From Skermanella rosea (GTDB lineage: Bacteria; Pseudomonadota; Alphaproteobacteria; Azospirillales; Azospirillaceae), in NCBI RefSeq assembly GCF_016806835.2, contig NZ_CP086116.1, positions 1-53,768 on the forward strand: DNA of 53,768 nucleotides. Reading direction: 5' to 3'. Position 1 is the first letter of the stretch; every line of letters begins with the position of its first letter. Of the stretch, positions 2,923 to 47,376 are shown piece after piece. A program made the translations under genes and the position numbers. The notes beneath the pieces are model-generated. The model was not told the origin of the DNA. It saw nothing but the letters and a program-made list of their open reading frames with translations, and ran no database searches.

Positions 2923-4119
2923 CCGCATTCAGTAAATGCTGACTCTTGAAGAGGGCGCACCGTCCTGGCGAGAGGCTTCTACCGGGGCTTGTGGGATCGG
3001 GCAGTTTGTGATTCGGTTTCACCGCATTGATCTGCGGAGGGACATGATGGTGGCTGTTGCGATCCGACGAGACATCGAGGCCAGTGAGTTGCGGCGCCTT
3101 GCCCGTCTGGAGCGGGATGGTCGGGTATCCAGCCGGCTTCTGGCGCTGGCGGCGGTGCTCGATGGTGTCAGCCGCGAACAGGCCGCTCGCATCGGGGGAA
3201 TGGATCGGCAGACCCTGCGCGACTGGGTTCACCGCTTCAACGAAGCGGGTGTTGCGGGCCTGCGCGACCGTGCCCGGCCTGGGCGGCCCTGCCTGCTGGC
3301 CGAGGAACTGCTCCCGGAACTGGCCGCCCTGATCGCGGACGGTCCGCAGGTCGAGCGCGACGGTGTGGTCGAGTTCCGGCTGTCCCATATCCGCGCGTTG
3401 TCGCTGCGGCACTTCGGCGCCGACTACAGCCAGGGCGGCATGCACGCCGTGCTGCGCCGGATGGGCTTTTCCTGGCTGAAGCCCCGGCCGATCCACCCCA
3501 GGACCGACCTTGCGGCCCAGGAGACATTTAAAAAAACTTCGGCCAGACGCTGGCATGCATCCGTGATCAGCATCCCGAAGTCGAGCGGGTGGAGGTCTGG
3601 TTCCAGGACGAAGCCAGGGTCGGCCAGAAAGGCTCGCTGACCCACCTGTGGGCACCGACCGGCACGCGGCCTCGAGCGGTGCGCGACCATCGCTTCAAAT
3701 CCGCCTACATCTTCGGCGCGGTTTGTCCGGAGCGCGACACCGGGGTGGCGCTGGTGGTCAGCCGGGTCAGCACCGAGGCGATGAACCTCATGCTCGCCGA
3801 GATCAGCCAGGCCGTCGGCAAGGCCGCACACGCCGCCGTGCTGATCGACGGCGCCGGCTGGCACGTCGCAAACGATCTCGAGGTGCCGGCCAACATCACC
3901 TTGGTCCCGCTGCCGCCCTACAGCCCGGAACTCAATGCCATCGAGCGTCTGTGGCAAGTCATGCGCGACACCTTGCTCTCACACCGCCTCTTCACCGATC
4001 TCAACCACATCATCGAGGTCTGCTGCACAACTTGGAATACTCTGATCAGCCAGCCCGGACGGATCCAGTCCACATGCGGTTACCCCTGGGCCCTACCAGT
4101 CAGAACTTCCTGAATTTAG
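2923..4119 (+). mobile_element. IS630-family insertion sequence, 1197 bp
   Basis: The ends were placed from TA dinucleotides at 2921-2922 and 4120-4121 (IS630 elements duplicate TA) and from matching imperfect terminal repeats. The left end reads CCGCATTCAGTAAATGCTGA, and the right end read inward is CTAAATTCAGGAAGTTCTGA. The element contains one transposase gene in two frames. It sits at the 3' end of the minus-strand membrane gene at 4100-4678 and supplies that gene's present stop codon. The boundaries are inferred from imperfect repeats. Confidence 0.75.
3047..4113 (+). CDS. IS630-family transposase, made by -1 frameshift
   Basis: DDE transposase in two overlapping frames. The first part (about 3047-3535) carries an N-terminal helix-turn-helix (ERDGRVSSRLLALAAVLDG, EQAARIGGMDRQTLRDWVHR). 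The second (to 4113) carries the catalytic core, with FQDEARVGQKG, VLIDGAGWH and the terminal PYSPELNAIERLW block. The frames join at a run of seven A after TTT (3528-3537). Slipping back one base gives ...TFKKNFGQTLACIRDQHPEV and a 355-residue product. Slippery A runs of this kind are used for programmed frameshifting in several IS630 elements, so this is probably functional rather than a mutation. GGAGG 6 nt upstream supports the ATG at 3047. Confidence 0.8.
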
Positions 4120-4678
4120 TATAATCCGTCTTTTTCGTCTCTACAGCCAACTTTGCCCGATTCCGGCAGAAAATTTTCTGATAGTATTTTTTATACTTAC
4201 GCAAAATAAATCTTTGGATTTTTGATATTGTTGCAAATATTCCAGACCTTTTTGTAAATTCGATATCCATCTGATTTCGAACTTTCAAAGTAATAAACCT
4301 AAGTTTTTTGATATACAAATCATTATTTTTGGAGCTATTTTCTTGCGATCCTAATGAAACATATATAGTATCTCTCATTTTGAATATATTATCTGACACC
4401 TGTCTACTAAACAATGCAGGAGTCTGCAGCACAATATCGTCAACGTCTTGCAACTCTGAAAAACTGAAATCTATATTACTTCTTTGTTCTGCATTACTAA
4501 ATTTAATGTACAATTTATTTACCTTATCGTATAGCTTCTTTCTCTCTGAATAGAGATCATGATTCATTTTCTTGTGTTCTAGCGCAAATGCTCTCCAGCT
4601 CAAGATGATGGCGATAACGCCCGTGGTGCATGTACCAACCGCGGACGCGATATCAGCCCAATTGGGTCCGTCAGCCAT
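4100..4678 (-). CDS. AT-rich membrane-anchored coiled-coil protein, 192 aa, C-terminus altered by IS630
   Basis: Start at 4678 after a strong GGGAGAGGGA site. Residues about 8-32 (IASAVGTCTTGVIAIILSW) form one transmembrane helix. The rest is long, lysine-rich and helical, probably cytoplasmic. The gene is far more AT-rich than its neighbours, a sign of transfer. Its last codons lie inside the IS630 right end: with the IS it ends ...KKTDYTKFRKF, while without it the reading would be ...KKTDY followed by TAA. The protein may therefore still work with a six-residue tail. I do not recognise the family; small TM-plus-helix proteins of this type often accompany defence genes, but that is speculation here. 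Confidence 0.65.
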   Translation of the reverse strand: MADGPNWADIASAVGTCTTGVIAIILSWRAFALEHKKMNHDLYSERKKLYDKVNKLYIKFSNAEQRSNIDFSFSELQDVDDIVLQTPALFSRQVSDNIFKMRDTIYVSLGSQENSSKNNDLYIKKLRFITLKVRNQMDIEFTKRSGIFATISKIQRFILRKYKKYYQKIFCRNRAKLAVETKKTDYTKFRKF

Positions 4679-4782
4679 ATTCCCTCTCCCCCCGACCGAC
4701 CGGCTTATAGACGTCCAAACTTGTCCGATAAACATGTTTGTGAAAAGTGGGGTTTGGCCTTCCTTAGCGTATAATCCTCTCT

Positions 4783-4824
4783 GGGGTGACAACACGGAAG
4801 TGATCAGATTGTCCGGTTCGTAAG
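4783..4824 (+). repeat. Left terminal inverted repeat of the SIR2 element
   Basis: 42 bp starting GGGGTGACAACACGGAAGTG and ending TAAG, facing inward. The central 22 bases (4800-4821, approximately) are identical to the right copy. The target duplication TCTCT precedes it. Confidence 0.85.
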
Positions 4825-4841
4825 AACGTAGACGGAACTCG

Positions 4842-5404
4842 TCAGGTCGGGTGATCGGAAGCGTCCGAGATACCTTCGCCGAGCGCGGCATACAGTGCGG
4901 TCTTTCCCACCTTGATCCGTGCCACAGCCTCCCGAACCGTGAGGCCCTGGGCAATGAGCACCCTGGCCCGACGGAGCTTCTCTTCCGTCACCACTGGCCT
5001 GCGGCCGCCCCGGCGACCGCGAGCGGTGGCGGCGTCGAGCCCGGCGCGTGTGCGTTCCCGGATGAGGTCGCGCTCGAACTGCCCGAGAGCGCCGAAGATA
5101 TGGAAGATCAATCGGCCGCCGGACGTTGTGGTGTCGGTCGCTTCCGTCAGGGAGCGGAAGCCGACGCGTTCACAGTCTCAATCAGGTGCGGCAGCGAGCG
5201 GCCGAGACGGTCCAATTTCCAGACCACCAGCACGTCACCGTCCCGCATGAAGGCCAAGGCGGCCATCAACCCCGGACGGTCGGTCCTGGCGCCGGACGCC
5301 CTGTCCTCGAACACCCGGACGCAGCTGGCTCTGGCAAGGGCGTCGAGTTGCAATGCCAAGTCCTGGTCGGCCGTTGAGACCCGCGCGTAGCCGATCGCCA
5401 CCAT
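4842..5404 (-). pseudogene. Serine resolvase (TnpR-type), frameshifted
   Basis: The N-terminal part (MVAIGYARVSTADQDLALQL, catalytic serine in the RVST motif, then VVWKLDRLGRSLPHLIETV) and the C-terminal part (GFRSLTEATDTT, IFGALGQFERDLIRERTRAG, and a terminal helix-turn-helix LTVREAVARIKVGKTALYAAL) are both present. They lie in different frames. A short deletion near 5147-5180 removed several codons of the usual N(A/E)LxxRGVGF segment and changed the frame. All catalytic and DNA-binding parts remain, so the break is probably recent, but an active resolvase is unlikely. It is divergent from the SIR2 gene, with a res-like dyad between them. Confidence 0.85.
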
Positions 5405-5446
5405 GCCGCCCCGCCTTCTGTCTGCAAACCCGTCCGGCAAACTAGG

Positions 5447-5483
5447 TGTCCGGAAAGGCATCGTCAATGCGGGTTGACGGACA
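5447..5483. promoter_or_regulatory. res-like dyad between the resolvase remnant and the SIR2 gene
   Basis: TGTCCGGAAA at 5447 and TTGACGGACA ending at 5483 form an imperfect inverted pair, similar to resolvase subsites. The 5405-5645 interval also holds the promoters for the divergent resolvase and SIR2 genes. A second dyad of the same style (TGTCCGTC...AACGGACA, 8132-8159) lies just inside the right end of the element. Confidence 0.5.
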
Positions 5484-5645
5484 GATGGGCGGTTGGCCGG
5501 CAAACGGCTGTTTCGCGGACGGCGGGGCGTCTGCCTTGGGCCGGAAATGGACGGGCAGCTTATAGATCTAAAAATTGCAAAAACTGCCGTTGAAGATTGC
5601 GATCTCGAGAGACGTGTCACACTATCGCGTAAAATGGAGGTGTTA

Positions 5646-8018
5646 ATGGCGCACGATACTGACCGAATCGAGGAGTTCGACCCTGAATCCTCAATCCTCT
5701 TCCTTGGGTCCGGGTTCAGTCTCGGAGCGACCAATATCTCGAACGACAGTCCACCGAACGGCAAGGGGCTGCGGCGCCATTTCATTCAACAACTCAAGCT
5801 CCCGGCGGATACGGACTATGATCTGCAGGTTCTCAGCGAGGAGTTCGCCGAGGATAACCCCCGGAAGCTTCGTGACGAACTCTACAGGATTTTTCGGCTG
5901 ACCGCATTAACTGCGGGACAAACGGCCGTGCTCGACGAGCCATGGCGACGCATCTACTCAACTAACTACGATGATGCAGTAGAATTGCATCGGTTGAGCA
6001 AGAAAGCACCGCCGAACGCGTTCGATGTTTCCGAGCCGGTTCCGAACAAATTGCCTCATGGAGCAGTCGTGCATCTCCACGGCAGCATCCGGCTGATCAC
6101 GCCGGAGAACGTGAAGGAGAGTCTCGTCCTCGGCGAGGGTTCCTACGTGAACCAGTACGTCATCCGCTCGCCGTGGTACGACCAATTTCAGCGCGATCTC
6201 GCCTTCGCTAGCGCCCTTTACGTCGTCGGCTATAGCCTCGCCGACTACCATATCGCTGGCCTGTTGATGGCCAATCCGAAGCTCGCCGAGCGAACCTTCT
6301 TCATCCAAGGACCCACCCCAGATCAGACTTTCGTGCGCCGCACCGCGCAGTACGGGCGCACGATGTTCATAGGCACCGACGGTTTCGCCAAGGCGCTCGC
6401 GTGCATTCCGCGCCCAGCCGCCCCAGCACTCGAGAGCCTGCGGGCGTTCCGCTTGTTGACGCCAACGCGGGACAATAAGGCAGGCGCCCGTCCGACCGCT
6501 CCGGAGGTGTTCGATCTGCTAGTCTATGGGGATTTCGATGCCAGCCGTCTTGCTCGTTCGCAACCCAGTGAAGATTACGCGATCGCGCGGGCGGATGCGG
6601 TGCATGCGGCGGCAGACGCCGTTGAGTCAAAACGATCGCTTGTTGTCGATGGCCGCCTCGGTAACGGCAAGTCAATCTTCCTTCACCTGCTTGCATTCGA
6701 ACTTACGTCGAGAGGCTGGACCTGTCTTCTGCTCCGGCCAGGCCATCCGGACCTCCAACGCGAGATAGCGACGCTAGCCAGCATCGACCGCGTTGTTGTG
6801 TTCATCGATCAATATTCTGCCGCCCAGGACAGTTTGCGCGGTCTTCGCGAGGCGCTCCCAAATGCTAAACTCGTACTGGAGGTTCGCACAGGGACGTTCG
6901 AGGTCCGGTTTCACGAACTCGCCCAGCTTCTGCCCAAGCCGTTCGATCGGGTGAGCCTTAACGTGCTCACGCGCGCTGAGGTGATAGCCTTAGGCCGATT
7001 GTGCGAGCGTGTCGGGCTCCGCGCGCCCGCCAAGGATAGCCGGGGGGACTTCCGTGATTTGCTGCTTGAACTGTTCAAGAACACGGCGATCCGCGACCGT
7101 GTTCGGGCAGCCTTGGCGCCCCTCTTCGAGAAGCGAGCCACGCGGCGCATCCTGACCATGACGATGTTGATCGCCACGCATCAGGGGGCAGTCGGTGCTG
7201 CCTTCGTGCGATCAGTGGTGGGAGAGGATCCGTTCGTGGCGCTCAAGCCACTTGAGGATTTGTCACATGAGATCTTCGAGACATCATCCGATAACTTCAA
7301 GGCCCGCTCGTCAATCTTCTCGTCATTCGTGATCGACGCTTTCATTGAGCCGGACGAGATCGCCGACGCCGTAGTCGAGGTGACGCTGGCCGCAGCCCGG
7401 CGGCGGATTGAGCGGCCGTACCGCATCCTTATGTCGAACATGATGGCCTATTCGAGCCTGCGAAGAACTCTGCGGGGCAAGGTAGATCCAGAAGCGATCA
7501 TCATCGGCATCTACGAACGTCTTCGTTACGACGAACGTGTAAACGCAGAACCGTTATTCTGGCTTCAGTATGCTATCGCGATGGCCGAGACGACACGGCT
7601 CGACACGGCCGACGAGTATATTGGCACGGCGTACCGGAAGGCGCAGGACCTCCCAGGCTTTCAAACCTACCAGATCGATACTCAGGCTTTCCGCATCGCG
7701 TTGTTGCGCGCGACACAGCAAAACCGAGGGCAGCCGATCTTCAACATTGACGTGATCCTTGAGGGGATCGAGCGAATTGATGCTATGCTCGGCGACGAGA
7801 GCCATAGGTCTTATGCCGTGAAGGTACTCGATTACTTGCAGCCTTTTGTGGCGGCACGAATCAGCGATCTCGCAGCCGGTGAGCGTACCGCACTACAATT
7901 CTGGCTACTGAAGGTAGCGAAGTCTCTCGCCTCGCTGCCGGAAGATTTCAGGGCTACAGCGGGGTCTGAGGCAGTCCAAAAGCGCGTCGAAGCGGCCGCC
8001 GCGAGTTTTATCAACTGA
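5646..8018 (+). CDS. SIR2-domain / STAND-like NTPase, predicted antiphage protein, 790 aa
   Basis: The ATG at 5646 has GGAGG 5 nt upstream; the open frame extends further 5' but without a start signal. The N-terminal SIR2-like domain (about 1-260) shows the nucleotide-binding loop ILFLGSGFS (G21-S25), the TNYD motif with the catalytic-type Asn near 107, HLHGS with His near 145, and VVGYSLADYHIAGLL. A P-loop NTPase follows: Walker A GRLGNGKS (336-343) and Walker B VVVFIDQY (about 383-390). The C-terminal 400 residues are helical and sensor-like. SIR2-STAND proteins (for example the AVAST type V class) deplete NAD+ when a phage component is sensed; that function is inferred from domains here. 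It is the only cargo gene of the Tn3-like element. Confidence 0.82.
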   Translation: MAHDTDRIEEFDPESSILFLGSGFSLGATNISNDSPPNGKGLRRHFIQQLKLPADTDYDLQVLSEEFAEDNPRKLRDELYRIFRLTALTAGQTAVLDEPWRRIYSTNYDDAVELHRLSKKAPPNAFDVSEPVPNKLPHGAVVHLHGSIRLITPENVKESLVLGEGSYVNQYVIRSPWYDQFQRDLAFASALYVVGYSLADYHIAGLLMANPKLAERTFFIQGPTPDQTFVRRTAQYGRTMFIGTDGFAKALACIPRPAAPALESLRAFRLLTPTRDNKAGARPTAPEVFDLLVYGDFDASRLARSQPSEDYAIARADAVHAAADAVESKRSLVVDGRLGNGKSIFLHLLAFELTSRGWTCLLLRPGHPDLQREIATLASIDRVVVFIDQYSAAQDSLRGLREALPNAKLVLEVRTGTFEVRFHELAQLLPKPFDRVSLNVLTRAEVIALGRLCERVGLRAPAKDSRGDFRDLLLELFKNTAIRDRVRAALAPLFEKRATRRILTMTMLIATHQGAVGAAFVRSVVGEDPFVALKPLEDLSHEIFETSSDNFKARSSIFSSFVIDAFIEPDEIADAVVEVTLAAARRRIERPYRILMSNMMAYSSLRRTLRGKVDPEAIIIGIYERLRYDERVNAEPLFWLQYAIAMAETTRLDTADEYIGTAYRKAQDLPGFQTYQIDTQAFRIALLRATQQNRGQPIFNIDVILEGIERIDAMLGDESHRSYAVKVLDYLQPFVAARISDLAAGERTALQFWLLKVAKSLASLPEDFRATAGSEAVQKRVEAAAASFIN

Positions 8019-8187
8019 CGGGAGTTAATATTTTTTGATGGGACTATCGAACGCGAATGGGACAGCAGCATTTAGAATCAGGTGTTCCGACCATAAACGG
8101 CAAACTTGGGCGCAAAGCTGATATTTGCCCCTGTCCGTCAAAGGGAGGGAAAACGGACAGGCAGTCGGCACACGTTCGACTCATGTT

Positions 8188-8229
8188 CTCGCGAACCGGA
8201 CAATCTGATCACTCCCGTGTCTTCATCCC
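8188..8229 (-). repeat. Right terminal inverted repeat of the SIR2 element
   Basis: Read inward on the minus strand it begins GGGATGAAGACACGGGAGTG and matches the left end at 36 of 42 positions. It is followed at 8230-8234 by TCTCT, identical to the pentamer before the left end. A res-like dyad lies about 30 bp further inside. Confidence 0.85.
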
Positions 8230-8484
8230 TCTCTGTTCTATGATGTCACTCCAAGCAGGATCATGGGGTAAACTGATGCGTCTGCCCAGCACGCCTGCAT
8301 CAAGCTAGGGGCGCCGCTGGCTGAAACCGGTGACCTGGATCAGCATCAGAATATCGCAGCTGATGGCACCAGCCTTGATCATGCTTGCGCCGGGGATCGC
8401 TCCCAGGCCCGCGCAGGATCGTGTAGCGCGTGCCTGCGTAGCGCTATCGGCTACCATACCGGCCGACGCGGCACCGGTCCCCTC

Positions 8485-32835: not shown

Positions 32836-34222
32836 GGTCGTGTCCGAAGGTTGGTAGGAAATTGTCTGGCGGCGTAATCTCCTGAAGGTGAAGAACCCAC
32901 ACCGGCGGTCTGGCCACCGCCGCAGGAGATCACGCCATGGAGAAGACTACATCCAACGACGCCGCGGTTCCATTGCTGGGCGACGACTGGTTCGATCCGT
33001 TGGAAGCCGGTGTGCGCCAGCGGATCCGCTCGTTCATCGAGGCGATGCTGGAGAGCGAGCTGGACGCGGCGCTGAACCGCGGGCGTTATGAGCGCGCCGG
33101 GCCACGCCAGGGGCATCGCCACGGCCATCGTGACCGACAGGTCCTCGGCACATTCGGCCCGACCACCGTGTCGGTTCCGCGCGCCCGGTTGGCCGGGGCC
33201 GACGGCACGACCCGGGAATGGCGCAACCGGACGCTGCCGGCCTACAAGCGACTGACCAGGCAGGCCGAGGCGCTGATCGCCGGGACCTACCTGGCGGGCA
33301 CCAACACCCGCCGGGTCCGCCGCGCCCTGGGAGCGCTGTTCGGCGGGGCGGTCGGCAAGGACACCGTCAGCCGGGCCTGGCGCAAGGTCCAGGGCGACTG
33401 GGAAGCCTGGCAGAAGCGGGATCTGTCGCAGGACGACATCGTGCGCATCATACTGGATGGCACCGTGGTCAAGGTCCGGCTGGACAAACGGGCCACCGGC
33501 ATCTCGGTGCTGGTGGCACTCGGTGTCCGGCGCGACGGCCAGAAGGTGCTTCTCGGCCTGCGCAATATGGGCGGCGAGAGCGAAGCCGCGTGGCGGGCCT
33601 TCCTGGATGATCTGGTCGCCCGCAAGCTCGCCACGCCGGACCTGCTGATCATCGACGGCGCCCCGGGCCTGGAGGCGGCCCTGAGCGCCCTCTGGCCGGA
33701 CGTGCCGCGGCAACGCTGCACAGTCCACAAGCATAGGAATCTCGTGGCCCACGCGCCCAAGAAGCTGCACGAAGAGATCAGCACCGACTACACCGACATG
33801 ATCTACGCCAGGACGGTGAAGGATGTCGAAGCCCGGCGGAAGGCGTTCGTGCGAAAGTGGCGGCTGAAGTGCCCAGCGGTCGCCGCCAGCCTTGAGGAGG
33901 CAGGTGCCAACCTGTTCACCTTCCTGCTCTACCCGCCCGACCAGTGGAAGTCGATCCGGACGACCAACGCCATCGAGCGGTTGCACGAGGAGTTCAAGCG
34001 CCGGATCAAGACGCAGTGCCTGCTGCCGTGTGCCGAGACCGCCTGCATGCTGTTCTGGGCCCTGCTCGCCAGCGGCCAGATCACCCTACGCCGCGTTGAC
34101 GGTTGGGACACCCTGCACGTCGCTCCCGCCGACCAGCCGCTTGACCTCGCCGCATGATCCGACGACCCTGAAGCTCAGGAGAATGCGCCCTCAGCAATTC
34201 CTACCAACCTTCGGACACGACC
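32836..34222 (+). mobile_element. IS256-family element B, 1387 bp
   Basis: Terminal inverted repeats begin GGTCGTGTCCGAAGGTTGGT, with the exact complement at the right end. They are flanked by the 8-bp duplication GCACCATC (32828-32835 and 34223-34230). It is oriented opposite to element A and lies 59 bp of host gene sequence away. The different ends and transposase show that it is a separate insertion. Confidence 0.95.
32937..34157 (+). CDS. IS256-family transposase, 406 aa
   Basis: Same family as element A but a different subgroup. The N-terminal region ([32 protein letters not shown]) is rich in Arg and His. The DDE core has [36 protein letters not shown] and [16 protein letters not shown], with the terminal [19 protein letters not shown] motif. 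It is intact. The two transposases share plan but not close sequence, so cross-mobilisation is unlikely. Confidence 0.94.
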
Positions 34223-34865
34223 GCACCATCGACCACCGAACCCTAAAGCGCTCTGGCTCGCTGTCCCTATCCTTCCTGCGCGGCGTTGGCCTGCCGAATA
34301 GCCTGATAGACTACCTGCCCTCGCTGCTGAACCAAACTATCCAGTTCTACTCGGTCTTCATCAGCTACAGCCATGCCGACAAGTCGTTCGCACGACGGCT
34401 GTACAATGAACTCCAAGGACACGGCATTCGCTGCTGGCTCGATGAGCACCAGATGCTCCCCGGCGACGACATGTATGAGCGGATCGATCACGGTATCCGC
34501 CTATGGGACAAAATCCTGCTGTGCTGTTCCAGAAATTCATTGACGAGCTGGTGGGTGGACAACGAGATCGACAGCGCTTTCGAAAAGGAGCGTCAACTCA
34601 TGAAGGAGCGAGGCCGAAAAGTGCTTGCTGTGATCCCGCTCAATCTCGACGGCTTCTTATTCGACCAGGAATGGAAGAGTAGCAAGGCACGACAACTCCG
34701 GACTCGGTTGGCCGGTGATTTCACCGGCTGGGAAAAGGACAACGCCAAGTTCGAGGTCGAATTTGAGAAGGTCTTTCGGGCGCTGCGGGCCGACGAAGGA
34801 GGACGGGAGACGCCGCCACCTTCCAGGCTGTGAAATCCGTCGAATACCCGACGTAACCCCGACCA

Positions 34866-42842: not shown

Positions 42843-43400
42843 GCCGAAAGACCCTTCATGGATAACCATTGGCAATTCTGGTCGGCCGAGGACGAGCCGC
42901 TCCCGGCGGCTGTCGCCGACTGGCAGTTCGATGCGGCCCTCCCGCAGCCGTGGCCCCTCAGAAGCCCCGGCGCATTCGACCGCGGCCCCGACGGGCGCTG
43001 GACCTCCTACCCGGCCAACACGCCGCGCCCGTACCACGCTCCCGTCACGCGCGTGCTACGGGGAATCCTGGTAGAGCCCGCCCGGTTCCAGCTCGTCTAC
43101 AACAGCCGGCCCTTCGCGCCGACCAGCCTGTTCGCTGCCCCGATTGTCGCCGACAGCACCGTCCAGACGCCCTTCGGGATCGGCGCCGTCCTGCTCCGCG
43201 CCGACAACACGGCCGCGACGCACGGGTAGGCCTTTCCGTAACCTGCGTGCCAAAAGTGCCGATCTGGAAAGCGTTAGATTTCAATGGGTTGCGCCAGACC
43301 TGTTCGTGTAACCCTATGATATCATGAGAGATTCAGCTTTTTCATTTGATCGTGAGGCCCCGGGGCGGCCATTCCATCGCTGAGAATTCGGCGCAGTGGC

Positions 43401-43985
43401 TCAGGGATCGGATTTTGCGTCCGGTGGAGTGCCCCGTGCCGCGGAGGCAATCCGGCTGATGGTGGCTCGATGGACCCGGAAGAGGCGGGCGACATCGGCT
43501 CCGGTGCGACCGGCGGCGAGCATCCCGAGAATCTCGGTCTTTTGGTGTGCCAGGAGCTTCGGACGCCGTCCGCCCTTTCGGCCGCGCTCGCGGGCCGCCC
43601 TCAGACCGGCGCGGGTTCGCTCCCGGACCATGGCACGCTCGAACTCGGCGAAGGACCCAAGCATCTGCATCATCATGCGTCCGGCCGGACCGGTGGTGTC
43701 GACCGCTTCTGTCAAGGAGCGGAAGGTGGCACCCGCCGCGTCGATCTTCTCCAGGATATGCAGCAGATCCTTGAGCGAGCGTGACAGGCGGTCGAGTTTC
43801 CAGACGACGAGAGCATCGCCGTCGCGCAAATGGTCGAGGAGGCGATGTAACTCGGGCCGATTCCACCGGCCGCCGGAGGCTGTCTCCTCGTAGACGCGCG
43901 TGCAGCCGGCCGCCTTCAGGGCACTGACCTGGGCGGCGGTGTCCTGATCGTCGGCCTTCGACACGCGGGCATAGCCAAGCAGCAT
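43401..43985 (-). CDS. tnpR: Tn3-family resolvase TnpR, 194 aa
   Basis: Serine recombinase with LLGYARVSKADDQDTAAQV (active Ser), ALVVWKLDRLSRSLKDLL and GSFAEFERAMVRERTRAGL, and a C-terminal helix-turn-helix (AGRTGADVARLFRVHRATISRI). The start at 43985 (MLLGYARV) is the normal family start; the frame continues upstream without need. It is intact, unlike the resolvase at 4842. It resolves cointegrates at the res region between it and tnpA. Confidence 0.94.
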   Translation of the reverse strand: MLLGYARVSKADDQDTAAQVSALKAAGCTRVYEETASGGRWNRPELHRLLDHLRDGDALVVWKLDRLSRSLKDLLHILEKIDAAGATFRSLTEAVDTTGPAGRMMMQMLGSFAEFERAMVRERTRAGLRAARERGRKGGRRPKLLAHQKTEILGMLAAGRTGADVARLFRVHRATISRIASAARGTPPDAKSDP

Positions 43986-44197
43986 GGCAGGTGTCGCAAA
44001 ATCCTGTTGCCTTTGACTGCGATTTGGCAACAGGATTCCGCACAGCACAAGCCCTTGTTTCTGCTTGTCCCGGGTTTCCGCTGCGCAGACGATCGTTTGT
44101 GAATCATCGGGAATGGCAATATCGACGACAGTCGTCTGGCCGGCGGTGACACTCTGATCAGGGGGACGCAGCGATTCCGGATCCTGTCGCCAGCCCG
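43986..44197. promoter_or_regulatory. res region and divergent promoters of the Tn3-family element
   Basis: A 12-bp inverted repeat (AATCCTGTTGCC at 44000-44011 and GGCAACAGGATT at 44026-44037) lies next to tnpR. The following 150 bases, up to tnpA, contain shorter dyads. This is the usual place of the resolution site. Confidence 0.65.
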
Positions 44198-44212
44198 ATG
44201 AAGAAGGGTCCG

Positions 44213-47143
44213 ATGAGTCGGTGGGAACATCGATATCTCGGTGAGGACAGGTTTCCCGCGACGCTGTCGGCGCTCGAGATCGAGCATTTCTTCACTCTCG
44301 ACGAGGGCGAGCTGGCTTCGGTTCGAGAGCGCCGGGGACCCTTGAACCGGCTGGCGCTCGCCCTCCAGGTCGGCTTCCTCAAGATGACCGGCCGTACCCT
44401 CAACTCCGTTGAGCTCATTCCCTCGGGGATCCTCGATCATCTCGGCCGGCACCTCCATTGCGTGCCGCCGCGGATCGCCTCGGTCCGGGCGTTCTATCGC
44501 CGGCGCCCCCGGACCTTGTTCGAGCATCATGAAGCAGCGCTCCGGCTGCTCGGACGTACCGTGCTCACCCCTCATGCCGGGCGCGGGCTCGTGGCCTATC
44601 TTCGCCGGGAAGCGGCAGTGGTGTTCGACCATGACGACCTGATGGCACGGGCCCGCATCTGGCTGGTCGAGCATCATTATCTCCTGCTCCGTGAGCGGGA
44701 CATCCGGCGGCAGGTGATCGCCGCGCGGCGGCACCACGAGCAGGCTCTGTTCAAGACCATCGCTGCGGCGGTACCGGCGGCCGAGCGCGAGACCTGGGTG
44801 TCGCGGCTGCTCGCGCCCGTCGAGGGCGGTGAGATCGGCCACGTCGAATGGCTGGGTGCCGTGCCGTCGAGCAAGGGCGCCAAAGGCCTCGAGGAGCAGA
44901 TCGAGAAAGTCGGTTTCCTCAAGGAATTGGCCGCGAACCGGCTCGTCCTCCCCGATCTGCCGCTCGCAGGGCTGGAGCATTTCGCCAAACGGCTGATGTC
45001 GCGCAAGCCCGCGGCGTTGGCGCGGATCAAGGACCCGCATCGAACAATCGAGGTCGCCTGCTTCCTGCGCCTCACCCTGCTGCGTGTGACGGACGCAAGC
45101 CTGACGCTTCTCGATCACCGGATCGCAGCGCTGTGGCGCGACGCTCGGGAACGCGCCGCGGAAGCGCGGGCGAGCCGATTGCGACGGTTCCGTCAACTGC
45201 TCGGCGATCTCGCGGGGCTGGCGGGTGACGAAACGCTCGAGGTCGCCGAATTGCGGTCGCGGCTGCGCGGCCTGATCGCGCCCTTCGAACCGGAGCGCGC
45301 GGCGACCCAGGTCGACGCCGTGCGCCAGGAACTGGGGCGCAAGTCCCAGCAGCTGGCCCGGCTCCTCAAGACGGCGCGTGCGGCGGAATTCGTGATCCCC
45401 GCCGACCACCGGCTCGCCGCCGCTCTTGCGACGCTCGATTCTGTCGCCGCGTCGTCCGCCACCACCTTGCCAGGCGGGATCTCCCAGCCGTTCGGTCCGT
45501 CCTGGCAGGGTCTGATCAATCAGCCGGATCGGGTGGCCGCACTCGGTTGCTTTCGCGCGGCAACCGTGATGGCCCTGAAGCGGGCGGTTCGAAACCGGTC
45601 GGTCTCGGTCGATCACAGCCTGTCCCATCGGGCTCCCGAGGACAAGCTGATCCCCCTGAAACTCTGGCAGCGCGACCGGGCGCGCTTCATCCGTGACCTC
45701 AACCTGCCGGACAGCGCAGAGAAATATCTTCAGCGTCTGGAAGCGGGCCTGGCCGCTGGACTTGCCGCCTTGGCCGAGGCTGTCGAGGCTGGCACCGTCG
45801 CCATTGAGGGCGACGAACTCCGGGTCCCCCGGCGCAAGCCGCAGCCAAAGGATCCGCGCGTCGAAACGGCGCGCCGGGTGCTCGGGCGTGCCGTCGGTGA
45901 CGCCCAGCTTCCGGAAGTCCTGATCGAGATCGACGGCCTGACCCGGTTCTCCTGGGTCCTGCTCGGGCGTCCGGCCCGGTCGGAGCAGGAGTTGGTGACG
46001 CTCTATGCCAGCCTGCTCGGGCTGGGCTCCGACCTTTCCAGGGCCGAACTCGTGCGCATGGTGCCGTCAGTCGCGGCCGACAGCCTCGCCCAGATGGTGG
46101 TGAGGATCGAAGCGGAGGGAAGGTTTCGCGCGGCCAATGACGCGGTGCTGCGCTTCATGCGTCAGCATCACATCGCCACCCTGTGGGGACGCGGCCTGTT
46201 TGCGTCCGCAGACATGATGAGTCTCGAGGCGACGCGCTATCTCTGGTCGGCCCGGCTCGACCCGCGACGGCGAACCTATGCGGTCGGAATCTATGCCCAT
46301 GTGCTCGACCAGTGGGGCATTCTTTATGATCAACCGATCGTCCTGAACCGCCGGCAAGCGGGCGCCGCCATCGAAGGCGCGTTGCGCCAGCGGCAGGTCG
46401 ATCAGCTCAAGCGCGTTGCGGTCGACACCCATGGCTTCACGCATTTTGCGATGACGCTCGCCAAGGTGGTGCAATTCGATCTATGCCCGCGACTGGCCGG
46501 GCTGAAAAAGCGACGGCTCTATCTGCCCAAGGGGCTCACAGTTCCGGAGATCCTGCGGCCGATCGTGGCCGAGACCGTTTCCCGCCGCGCGATCAGCCGG
46601 GGTTGGGATGGCTTGCTCCGGCTCGGAGCCTCCGTCAAGCACGGCTGGTACCCGGCGACCGAGGCGCTCGACCGCTTCGGCTCGGCCGCCGCCGGCGATC
46701 CTGTTTACGAAGCCGGTGACGCCCTGGGAAAGCTGCTGCGCACCCTCTATCTCTGCGACTATCTCAGCAACCCGGTATTCCGGACGGAAATCCTCGATCT
46801 GCTCAACCAGGGCGAGGCCGTCCACAGCCTGCAGCGCGCCATCCATAACGGCATGATCCCGGCGAAACACGGCCGCACGACCGAACAGCTCGGCGCCATC
46901 TCGGGGGCGCTCACCTTGCTCGCGAACATCGTCATGGCCTGGAATACCCATCGCCTCCAGGCGGCGATCGACCTGGCCCCGGGCGACCATGCCGACGATG
47001 TGTTGAGCCGTCTCGCACCGATCGGACACAAGCACATCAACATGCGCGGCATCCTGACGTTCGATCTCACCCGGTACGGATCGAGCCTGCTTCGCCAGAC
47101 GCCACAGGCCGCCCAGGACCGTTCATCGAGCGAAAAAAGCTGA
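44213..47143 (+). CDS. tnpA: Tn3-family transposase TnpA, 976 aa
   Basis: DDE transposase of normal length. GAAGG 6 nt before ATG-44213 is better than anything upstream of ATG-44198. The N-terminal DNA-binding domain (SRWEHRYLGEDRFPATLSALEIEHFFTL) is followed by the C-terminal core with VAVDTHGFTHFAMTLAKVV, LPKGLTVPEILRPIV and ILDLLNQGEAVHSLQRAIHNG. The final segment ILTFDLTRYGSSLL runs into the right terminal repeat. It looks intact, so the element should be active. Confidence 0.94.
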   Translation: MSRWEHRYLGEDRFPATLSALEIEHFFTLDEGELASVRERRGPLNRLALALQVGFLKMTGRTLNSVELIPSGILDHLGRHLHCVPPRIASVRAFYRRRPRTLFEHHEAALRLLGRTVLTPHAGRGLVAYLRREAAVVFDHDDLMARARIWLVEHHYLLLRERDIRRQVIAARRHHEQALFKTIAAAVPAAERETWVSRLLAPVEGGEIGHVEWLGAVPSSKGAKGLEEQIEKVGFLKELAANRLVLPDLPLAGLEHFAKRLMSRKPAALARIKDPHRTIEVACFLRLTLLRVTDASLTLLDHRIAALWRDARERAAEARASRLRRFRQLLGDLAGLAGDETLEVAELRSRLRGLIAPFEPERAATQVDAVRQELGRKSQQLARLLKTARAAEFVIPADHRLAAALATLDSVAASSATTLPGGISQPFGPSWQGLINQPDRVAALGCFRAATVMALKRAVRNRSVSVDHSLSHRAPEDKLIPLKLWQRDRARFIRDLNLPDSAEKYLQRLEAGLAAGLAALAEAVEAGTVAIEGDELRVPRRKPQPKDPRVETARRVLGRAVGDAQLPEVLIEIDGLTRFSWVLLGRPARSEQELVTLYASLLGLGSDLSRAELVRMVPSVAADSLAQMVVRIEAEGRFRAANDAVLRFMRQHHIATLWGRGLFASADMMSLEATRYLWSARLDPRRRTYAVGIYAHVLDQWGILYDQPIVLNRRQAGAAIEGALRQRQVDQLKRVAVDTHGFTHFAMTLAKVVQFDLCPRLAGLKKRRLYLPKGLTVPEILRPIVAETVSRRAISRGWDGLLRLGASVKHGWYPATEALDRFGSAAAGDPVYEAGDALGKLLRTLYLCDYLSNPVFRTEILDLLNQGEAVHSLQRAIHNGMIPAKHGRTTEQLGAISGALTLLANIVMAWNTHRLQAAIDLAPGDHADDVLSRLAPIGHKHINMRGILTFDLTRYGSSLLRQTPQAAQDRSSSEKS

Positions 47144-47376
47144 ATCTCTCATGATATCATAGGGTTACACGAACAGACCCGGCGCAACCCGTTGAAATCA
47201 AACGCTTTCCAGATCGGCACTTTTGGCACGCAGGTTACGGAAAGGCCGGGTACACCACCGAAGTCCGCGCATGGCTCGAGGAGTTCCTCAAGCGCGTCCA
47301 GTACGATTGATCACGGCCACCCGCCGAAGCTCGACGTCAGGGTGTGGAATGGGACTGGCCGACGAGATGTCTGCTG

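Follow-up and report, generated by a model that had tools for sequence, protein, structure and literature searches.

An Avs5-like SIR2-STAND gene within a Tn3-family element lacking tnpA in Skermanella rosea

Introduction

How does a probable anti-phage gene come to lie between the ends of a transposon that has no transposase gene, and does that transposon explain where else the gene is found? Both questions are raised by positions 4783-8229 of a contig of Skermanella rosea (NZ_CP086116.1), which was analysed over its whole length of 53,768 bp and is called the window below. The stretch is a unit bounded by inverted repeats and an exact 5-bp duplication, and its one apparently intact gene encodes a 790-residue protein with SIR2 and STAND domains. 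An original prediction, made from the sequence letters, described it as a Tn3-family element without tnpA, with a 5-bp duplication and a SIR2-STAND defence gene; the repeats, the duplication, tblastn searches and a profile match, which shows the gene to be Avs5-like, uphold that description. We consider it likely that the unit is a mosaic non-autonomous Tn3-family element with a captured Avs5-like gene, inserted by a transposase of the Azospirillum type.

Tn3-derived non-autonomous elements are already known, including one with a tnpR/res module (PMC4133298), and composite elements of this kind carry resistance genes (PMC13367494); the main text of the latter paper contains neither the word defence nor defense. 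Searches of the open-licence literature, judged by titles and the beginnings of abstracts, gave no description of a tnpA-less Tn3 element carrying an anti-phage gene, in agreement with the original prediction, which knew of no Tn3-type miniature element with a SIR2 or AVAST-like cargo.

Results

The left inverted repeat (4783-4827, + strand) is 45 nt long, runs from GGGG to TAAG and is of the same end type as that of Tn3 elements bearing tnpA. The right repeat (8185-8229, - strand), also 45 nt long, starts with GGGA, and its homology to the ends of the related element L050, described below, reaches 77 bp inward. The two repeats are 87% complementary over 45 nt and agree at 36 of their terminal 42 bases, as had been predicted, and TCTCT can be read directly outside both (4778-4782 and 8230-8234). 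Their length and the GGGG start of the left one fit the Tn3-family pattern of repeats of ~38-45 bp, and the duplication has the 5 bp of TIME-like Tn3 non-autonomous elements. The binomial chance of a match of at least 36/42 is ~8e-16 for one random pair. A 21-base core common to both ends, with up to 3 mismatches, is found at two places in the window; 100 shuffles of the window gave no such match. A 118-base query taken from the left end matched the left and right ends only when run against the own genome (7 contigs, 7.76 Mb), where the 21-base core with 3 mismatches gave one extra weak chromosomal match that, at -0.8 bits, is no end.

From left to right, the interior holds a broken tnpR on the - strand, a res-like region, the gene for the 790-residue protein, and ~166 bp up to the right repeat. 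The serine resolvase gene tnpR (4842-5404, - strand) is frameshifted at ~5165-5168. PF00239 is recognized in both of its pieces, and tblastn aligns them in different frames with residues 86-189 and 4-79 of the Tn3 resolvase of Azospirillum ramasamyi, at ~83% protein identity each. DNA homology to Azospirillum tnpR regions spans element bases 95-731, up to ~5513, and the part upstream of tnpR (5405-5513) is the putative res region. A working resolvase together with res, as in a TIME-RES element, is thus not found: the res-like DNA is conserved and tnpR is frameshifted. This tnpR resembles that of a Tn3 line whose ends are unlike those of the present element. No Tn3 transposase was detected between the two ends by tblastn with two Tn3 transposases as queries (E 1e-10). 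The predicted frameshift in the resolvase and absence of tnpA both hold.

The remaining gene (5646-8018, + strand) is intact and carries matches to PF13289 SIR2_2 (3e-10) and to PF25199, an nSTAND family that corresponds to nSTAND5 (5e-9), so that the predicted SIR2/P-loop protein is indeed the only cargo that appears intact. A profile built from 10 close relatives matches one solved protein, PDB 9JAP, with an E-value of 5.1e-64 over residues 14-694; the Foldseek listing gives its title as 'Helical structure of EfAvs5(SIR2-STAND)'. A Foldseek search with a structure model of the cargo, weak as that model is, also placed 9JAP first (5.6e-18), followed by the AVAST5 filament 9NC9. The C-terminal helical region is confident in the model, and SIR2, STAND ATPase and C-terminal repeats, the combination typical of Avs5, occur together in this one protein.

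The motifs GSGFS (residues 21-25), STNYD (105-109), HG (145-146) and the Walker A sequence GRLGNGKS (336-343) are all present, Walker A being part of the expected motif list. GSGFS, TNYD, HG and Walker A, which conform to the Avs5 pattern GxGxS, TNxD, H/N-G and Walker A, are invariant in 10 aligned sequences except for the final S/T of Walker A. Of these, GSGFS, TNYD and HG have their counterparts in GAGXS, TTNXD and HG, named as the sirtuin motifs of Avs5 in PMC12931631, where the SIR2 domain of Avs5 is described as hydrolysing NAD+ upon jumbo-phage infection. The ratio of non-synonymous to synonymous change (dN/dS) is 0.076-0.101 against four relatives, with dS >1 in three of the four pairs, and the protein family therefore appears to be under purifying constraint. 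By these comparisons, the protein is a full-length relative of EfAvs5 that has kept its catalytic motifs, and the gene is probably an anti-phage gene; by analogy, it would be expected to protect against phage and to cause loss of NAD+. A distant SIR2-STAND paralogue, an 839-aa open frame with 25% identity, lies on the chromosome of the same genome (L067, G000:C1:505628-507745).

Ends of this type recur in other genomes of the family, which is probably Azospirillaceae. A 24-base core pattern with at most 2 mismatches was found in 37 of 82 same-family genomes, the own genome included, and a reversed control pattern in none of the 82. Among 72,556 plasmid records, searched with the 48-base left end at E up to 1, six matched, all of them from Azospirillum, and two of these cover at least 80% of the query. 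We fetched 40 stretches around core matches, a subset of all match places, and scripted end pairs for duplications if they lay at most 20 kb apart. Besides the window, 14 such pairs were obtained: eight have a 5/5 duplication (three of them only after a one-base shift of an end) and one has a 4/5 duplication. Among these nine, two hold tnpA and seven have no match to either query transposase. The element L044 (8431 bp, ACCTC duplication) has a tnpA reading into one end (PF01526, E 4e-145). L046, with a TCCTA duplication after a one-base shift, also has a tnpA reading into one end, which matches in two pieces and could be frameshifted. The cousins without tnpA include L045, L047, L056 and L103, with 5/5 duplications as they stand, and L050 and L113, with 5/5 duplications after a one-base shift. 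In other genomes, exactly duplicated flanks thus surround units framed by this end type that range from 241 bp to 11.3 kb, and because both kinds carry duplications, forms with and without tnpA both appear to have moved. Elements with such ends and other cargo, which the original prediction suggested looking for, therefore exist, among them the tnpA-bearing L044.

A base-by-base comparison of the ends with those of L044, L049 and L050 places L050 nearest, with 89% identity over 47 bases on the left and 79% over 77 bases on the right. L050 (L050:1085-5034, 3949 bp) has 201-bp inverted repeats (96%), lacks tnpA, and is flanked on both sides by CTCAT once its left end is shifted by one base. Its 766-aa protein combines an N6 methylase domain with a type I specificity-like part, the PADLOC matches of its 98-aa helix-turn-helix protein include control proteins of restriction-modification (R-M) systems, and its 310-aa protein has no Pfam or PADLOC match. 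By eye, the last contains a stretch that we take to be PD-(D/E)XK-like. L050 is therefore R-M-like and a second tnpA-less unit with likely defence cargo. Other cousins, for which a subset of the cargo genes was annotated, carry cargo other than defence: CheC/CheX (L045), a GGDEF sensor (L109) and a response regulator (L113).

The survey also brought out elements at both extremes of size. The small units with these ends measure between 241 and 1353 bp, and miniature elements of 241 bp occur in two genomes, one with an exact ACATT duplication (L103:9286-9526) and one with none (L104:3794-4034). At G039:C10:211428-279411, two ends of this type are separated by 68 kb; CTGGG flanks the pair on either side, the tnpA close to the left end is interrupted, and the two ends may delimit a very large Tn3 element.

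To see how the cargo gene itself is distributed, we collected relatives at 13 loci from one genome scan and at one locus from one viral-contig scan. The window protein was aligned with nine full copies, which share 67-86% identity with it; copies at 79-86% come from Devosia, Aurantimonas, Pseudomonas, Halomonas, Salinicola and one viral contig. Inverted repeats spanning the gene (at least 24 nt, 75%, within 6 kb) were sought at 13 loci, two of which (L079 and L080) end at contig edges; none was present at the 11 with usable flanks, and the window control was found. Likewise, an end of the element's type was absent from all 15 relative loci and from three distant loci, the window locus scoring as expected. 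DNA homology between the relatives extends at most ~120 bases beyond the gene, in some pairs, apart from an unrelated match of 618 bases that L072 and L076 share several kilobases away from it. The neighbouring genes encode a phage tail tube protein (L083), MobA (L070), an integrase (L074) and an MmeI-like enzyme (L075), and open reading frames (ORFs) read beside the L075 copy include a serine recombinase. A broken copy on a Zymomonas plasmid is 85-87% identical in DNA to that of Pseudomonas yangonensis and 72-76% identical to that of the window. A tree of 12 rows joins the window copy to that of Devosia (96/98) and places the Pseudomonas, Halomonas and Salinicola copies in one group. No match to the cargo protein was found among the phages of INPHARED.

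A Tn3 vehicle for the relatives is rejected by these counts. The gene is a lone gene that changes vehicles, and one of these is the Tn3-ended unit. As it was made, the claim that the element provides the mechanism by which the defence gene spreads is not supported and is only partly right, given that all 11 usable relatives lack the repeats and that homology is confined to the gene. As for the observation named in advance as telling against the prediction, relatives without the repeats in a conserved context, the first half was found and the second was not: the relatives lack the repeats and share no context at all.

Which transposase inserted the unit? Two matches to Tn3 transposases are present in the own genome, identical copies at 44198-47143 of the window and in contig C7. 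The window copy belongs to a Tn3-family transposon (43229-47247) with unusually long repeats of 114 bp, 96% matched. The second copy of this transposon, in C7, is 100% identical over 4019 bp, which suggests recent movement. As the cognate enzyme of the element, the transposase at 44198-47143 was rejected: its ends are unrelated, neither copy has ends of the element's type, and it is 24-25% identical to the transposases of the cousins. Tn3 transposases are specific for their ends, and action of the own transposase on foreign ends is unlikely. Unless it did act on them, either the inserting transposase lies outside the present assembly or the element has since lost its tnpA.

The contig encodes a secretion ATPase (PF00437) and a conjugative coupling protein (PF02534) and is therefore probably a conjugative plasmid. 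An IS630 insertion sequence (IS) in the window is 99.6% identical to one on a plasmid of Skermanella mucosa. Against plasmids, the left flank gave IS630 matches only among the matches listed (15 of 20 records), none covering 80% of the query, and the right flank gave nothing. The non-IS part of the left flank, compared with the 82 same-family genomes, matched the own genome only; among genomes, the right flank was searched in the own one. An empty site with a single TCTCT, which the original prediction led one to look for, was found neither in plasmids nor, by the left flank, in the 82 genomes.

Two other ORFs of the window deserve mention. The ORF at 33892-34833 (+ strand) has a TIR domain (PF13676 TIR_2, E 8.5e-25) and a weaker match to Thoeris ThsB; it adjoins two ORFs that by eye resemble IS transposases, and its listed start overlaps the preceding ORF. 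It is possibly a second NAD+-linked defence gene on the contig. Just left of the element, the ORF at 4100-4678 (- strand) is AT-rich (37% GC) and encodes a small protein without a Pfam match and, by eye, with a likely membrane helix; the element lies ~100 bp upstream of its likely start.

Discussion

The unit shares imperfect Tn3-type repeats of ~40 bp, the lack of tnpA and a 5-bp duplication with TIME-like and TIME-RES elements, as described in the consulted parts of PMC4133298 and PMC13367494. Like TIME-RES, it has a tnpR/res module from another Tn3 element, here a tnpR from a Tn3 line with different ends. It differs from the TIME elements of those texts in the sequence of its ends, which are of Azospirillum type, in its broken resolvase, and in its SIR2-STAND cargo, where theirs are replication genes, resolvase or antibiotic-resistance genes. 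Closer at the ends are the tnpA-bearing elements L044, L046 and L053 of the same family, with ends of type GGGGTCACTACACGAAAGTGATCAGATTGTCCGG and tnpA reading into one end; L044 and L046 share the 5-bp duplication, and L053 ends at contig edges. These three differ in carrying tnpA and other cargo. L044 also differs just inside the end, with GGATCTGAGAACA compared with GGTTCGTAAGAACG here, and the match to its own tnpR falls into two pieces lying far apart. In Tn7-like elements, the genes for transposition are part of the element, and the elements are as a rule far larger. Like the present unit, they are transposons carrying anti-phage genes (PMC8649781); where Tn3 appears in the consulted text of that paper, it is for its resolvase, as a nested element or within the title of a reference. 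The cargo agrees with Avs5 (EfAvs5 of 9JAP and PaAvs5 of PMC12931631, as far as consulted) in its N-terminal SIR2, central STAND P-loop and C-terminal helical repeats and in the full-length profile match, but Pfam puts its ATPase nearer to nSTAND5 than to nSTAND3, and it keeps the canonical HG where PaAvs5-1 has NG.

In the reading that we favour, two Tn3-type ends, a decayed tnpR/res module and a captured Avs5-like gene would make up a mosaic non-autonomous element. An Azospirillum-type transposase, presumably acting in trans or in an earlier host, would have bound both ends and pasted the unit into the plasmid-like contig, with duplication of TCTCT. The cargo would at first be inactive; once a phage product is sensed by the C-terminal repeats, the protein would assemble through the STAND ATPase, and the SIR2 domain would hydrolyse NAD+, stopping the infection. 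This proposed course of activation draws on full-length homology to EfAvs5 and on published Avs5 work.

Several observations weigh against this reading. A transposase with matching ends is absent from the own assembly, the completeness of which is 98.9%. No empty site was found, one copy of the element is known, and movement of the unit rests on one 5-bp duplication. The other four genomes of the genus lack these ends at up to 2 mismatches, leaving the own genome as one of five; a single 3-mismatch core match in another of them scores -3.1 bits and is no end. Among the 14 other end pairs, five show no duplication. The unit may have lost its mobility by now, given the drift of the right end (GGGA instead of GGGG) and the broken tnpR. 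On the side of the cargo, the AlphaFold2 model, made with 10 close sequences, is poor (mean pLDDT 55) with an unreliable SIR2 part, so the fold match leans on the sequence profile. The protein scores 15.2 bits with the NCBIfam Avs5 equivalog model NF041814, the cut-off of which is 1000, and PADLOC gave no Avs5 match for it; we therefore call it Avs5-like and not Avs5.

The unit could instead be a decayed autonomous Tn3 that inserted here complete, with the SIR2 gene on board, and then lost tnpA by deletion in place, the tnpA-less form never having moved. The frameshifted tnpR and the drifted right end fit such decay, and so does the order of the Azospirillum ramasamyi Tn3 (inverted repeat, tnpR, cargo, tnpA, inverted repeat), from which a loss on the tnpA side gives the present layout. 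However, only ~166 bp separate the cargo from the right repeat, tblastn detected no remnant of tnpA, both repeats and the duplication were kept, and the exact duplications of the tnpA-less cousins show such units to be elements in their own right. We regard this course of events as rather unlikely, if worth serious consideration.

It is also improbable, in our judgement, that an old, empty, Tn3-derived miniature element was entered later by the SIR2 gene, for example through another recombinase or homologous recombination. The gene does move alone between many contexts without these repeats, and small units with these ends, between 241 and 1353 bp in length, do occur, but by eye the junction signature of a second mobile element is not evident at ~5520-5645 or 8019-8184. 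The probability is negligible that transposition has nothing to do with the repeats and TCTCT and that they reflect chance or DNA structure: TCTCT is a simple, low-complexity word, but the 36/42 match is far beyond chance, and the same end type brackets units with exact duplications elsewhere.

More tentatively, and with the odds somewhat against it, tnpA-less Tn3-ended cassettes moved in trans by resident Tn3 elements may form, in Azospirillum and related bacteria, a pool that acts as a general shuttle for anti-phage systems of a single gene or operon. If this is true, the SIR2-STAND cassette and the R-M-like L050 would each be an independent case of it, comparable to the way in which defence is spread elsewhere by integron cassettes or as cargo of Tn7. 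With its Tn3-ended unit and its phage tail gene, MobA and integrase or recombinase neighbours, the gene family offers a test case for change of vehicle. Annotation readily overlooks elements that lack a transposase, as PMC13367494 notes for miniature elements. If tnpA-less elements routinely carry anti-phage genes, part of the spread of immunity would be hidden.

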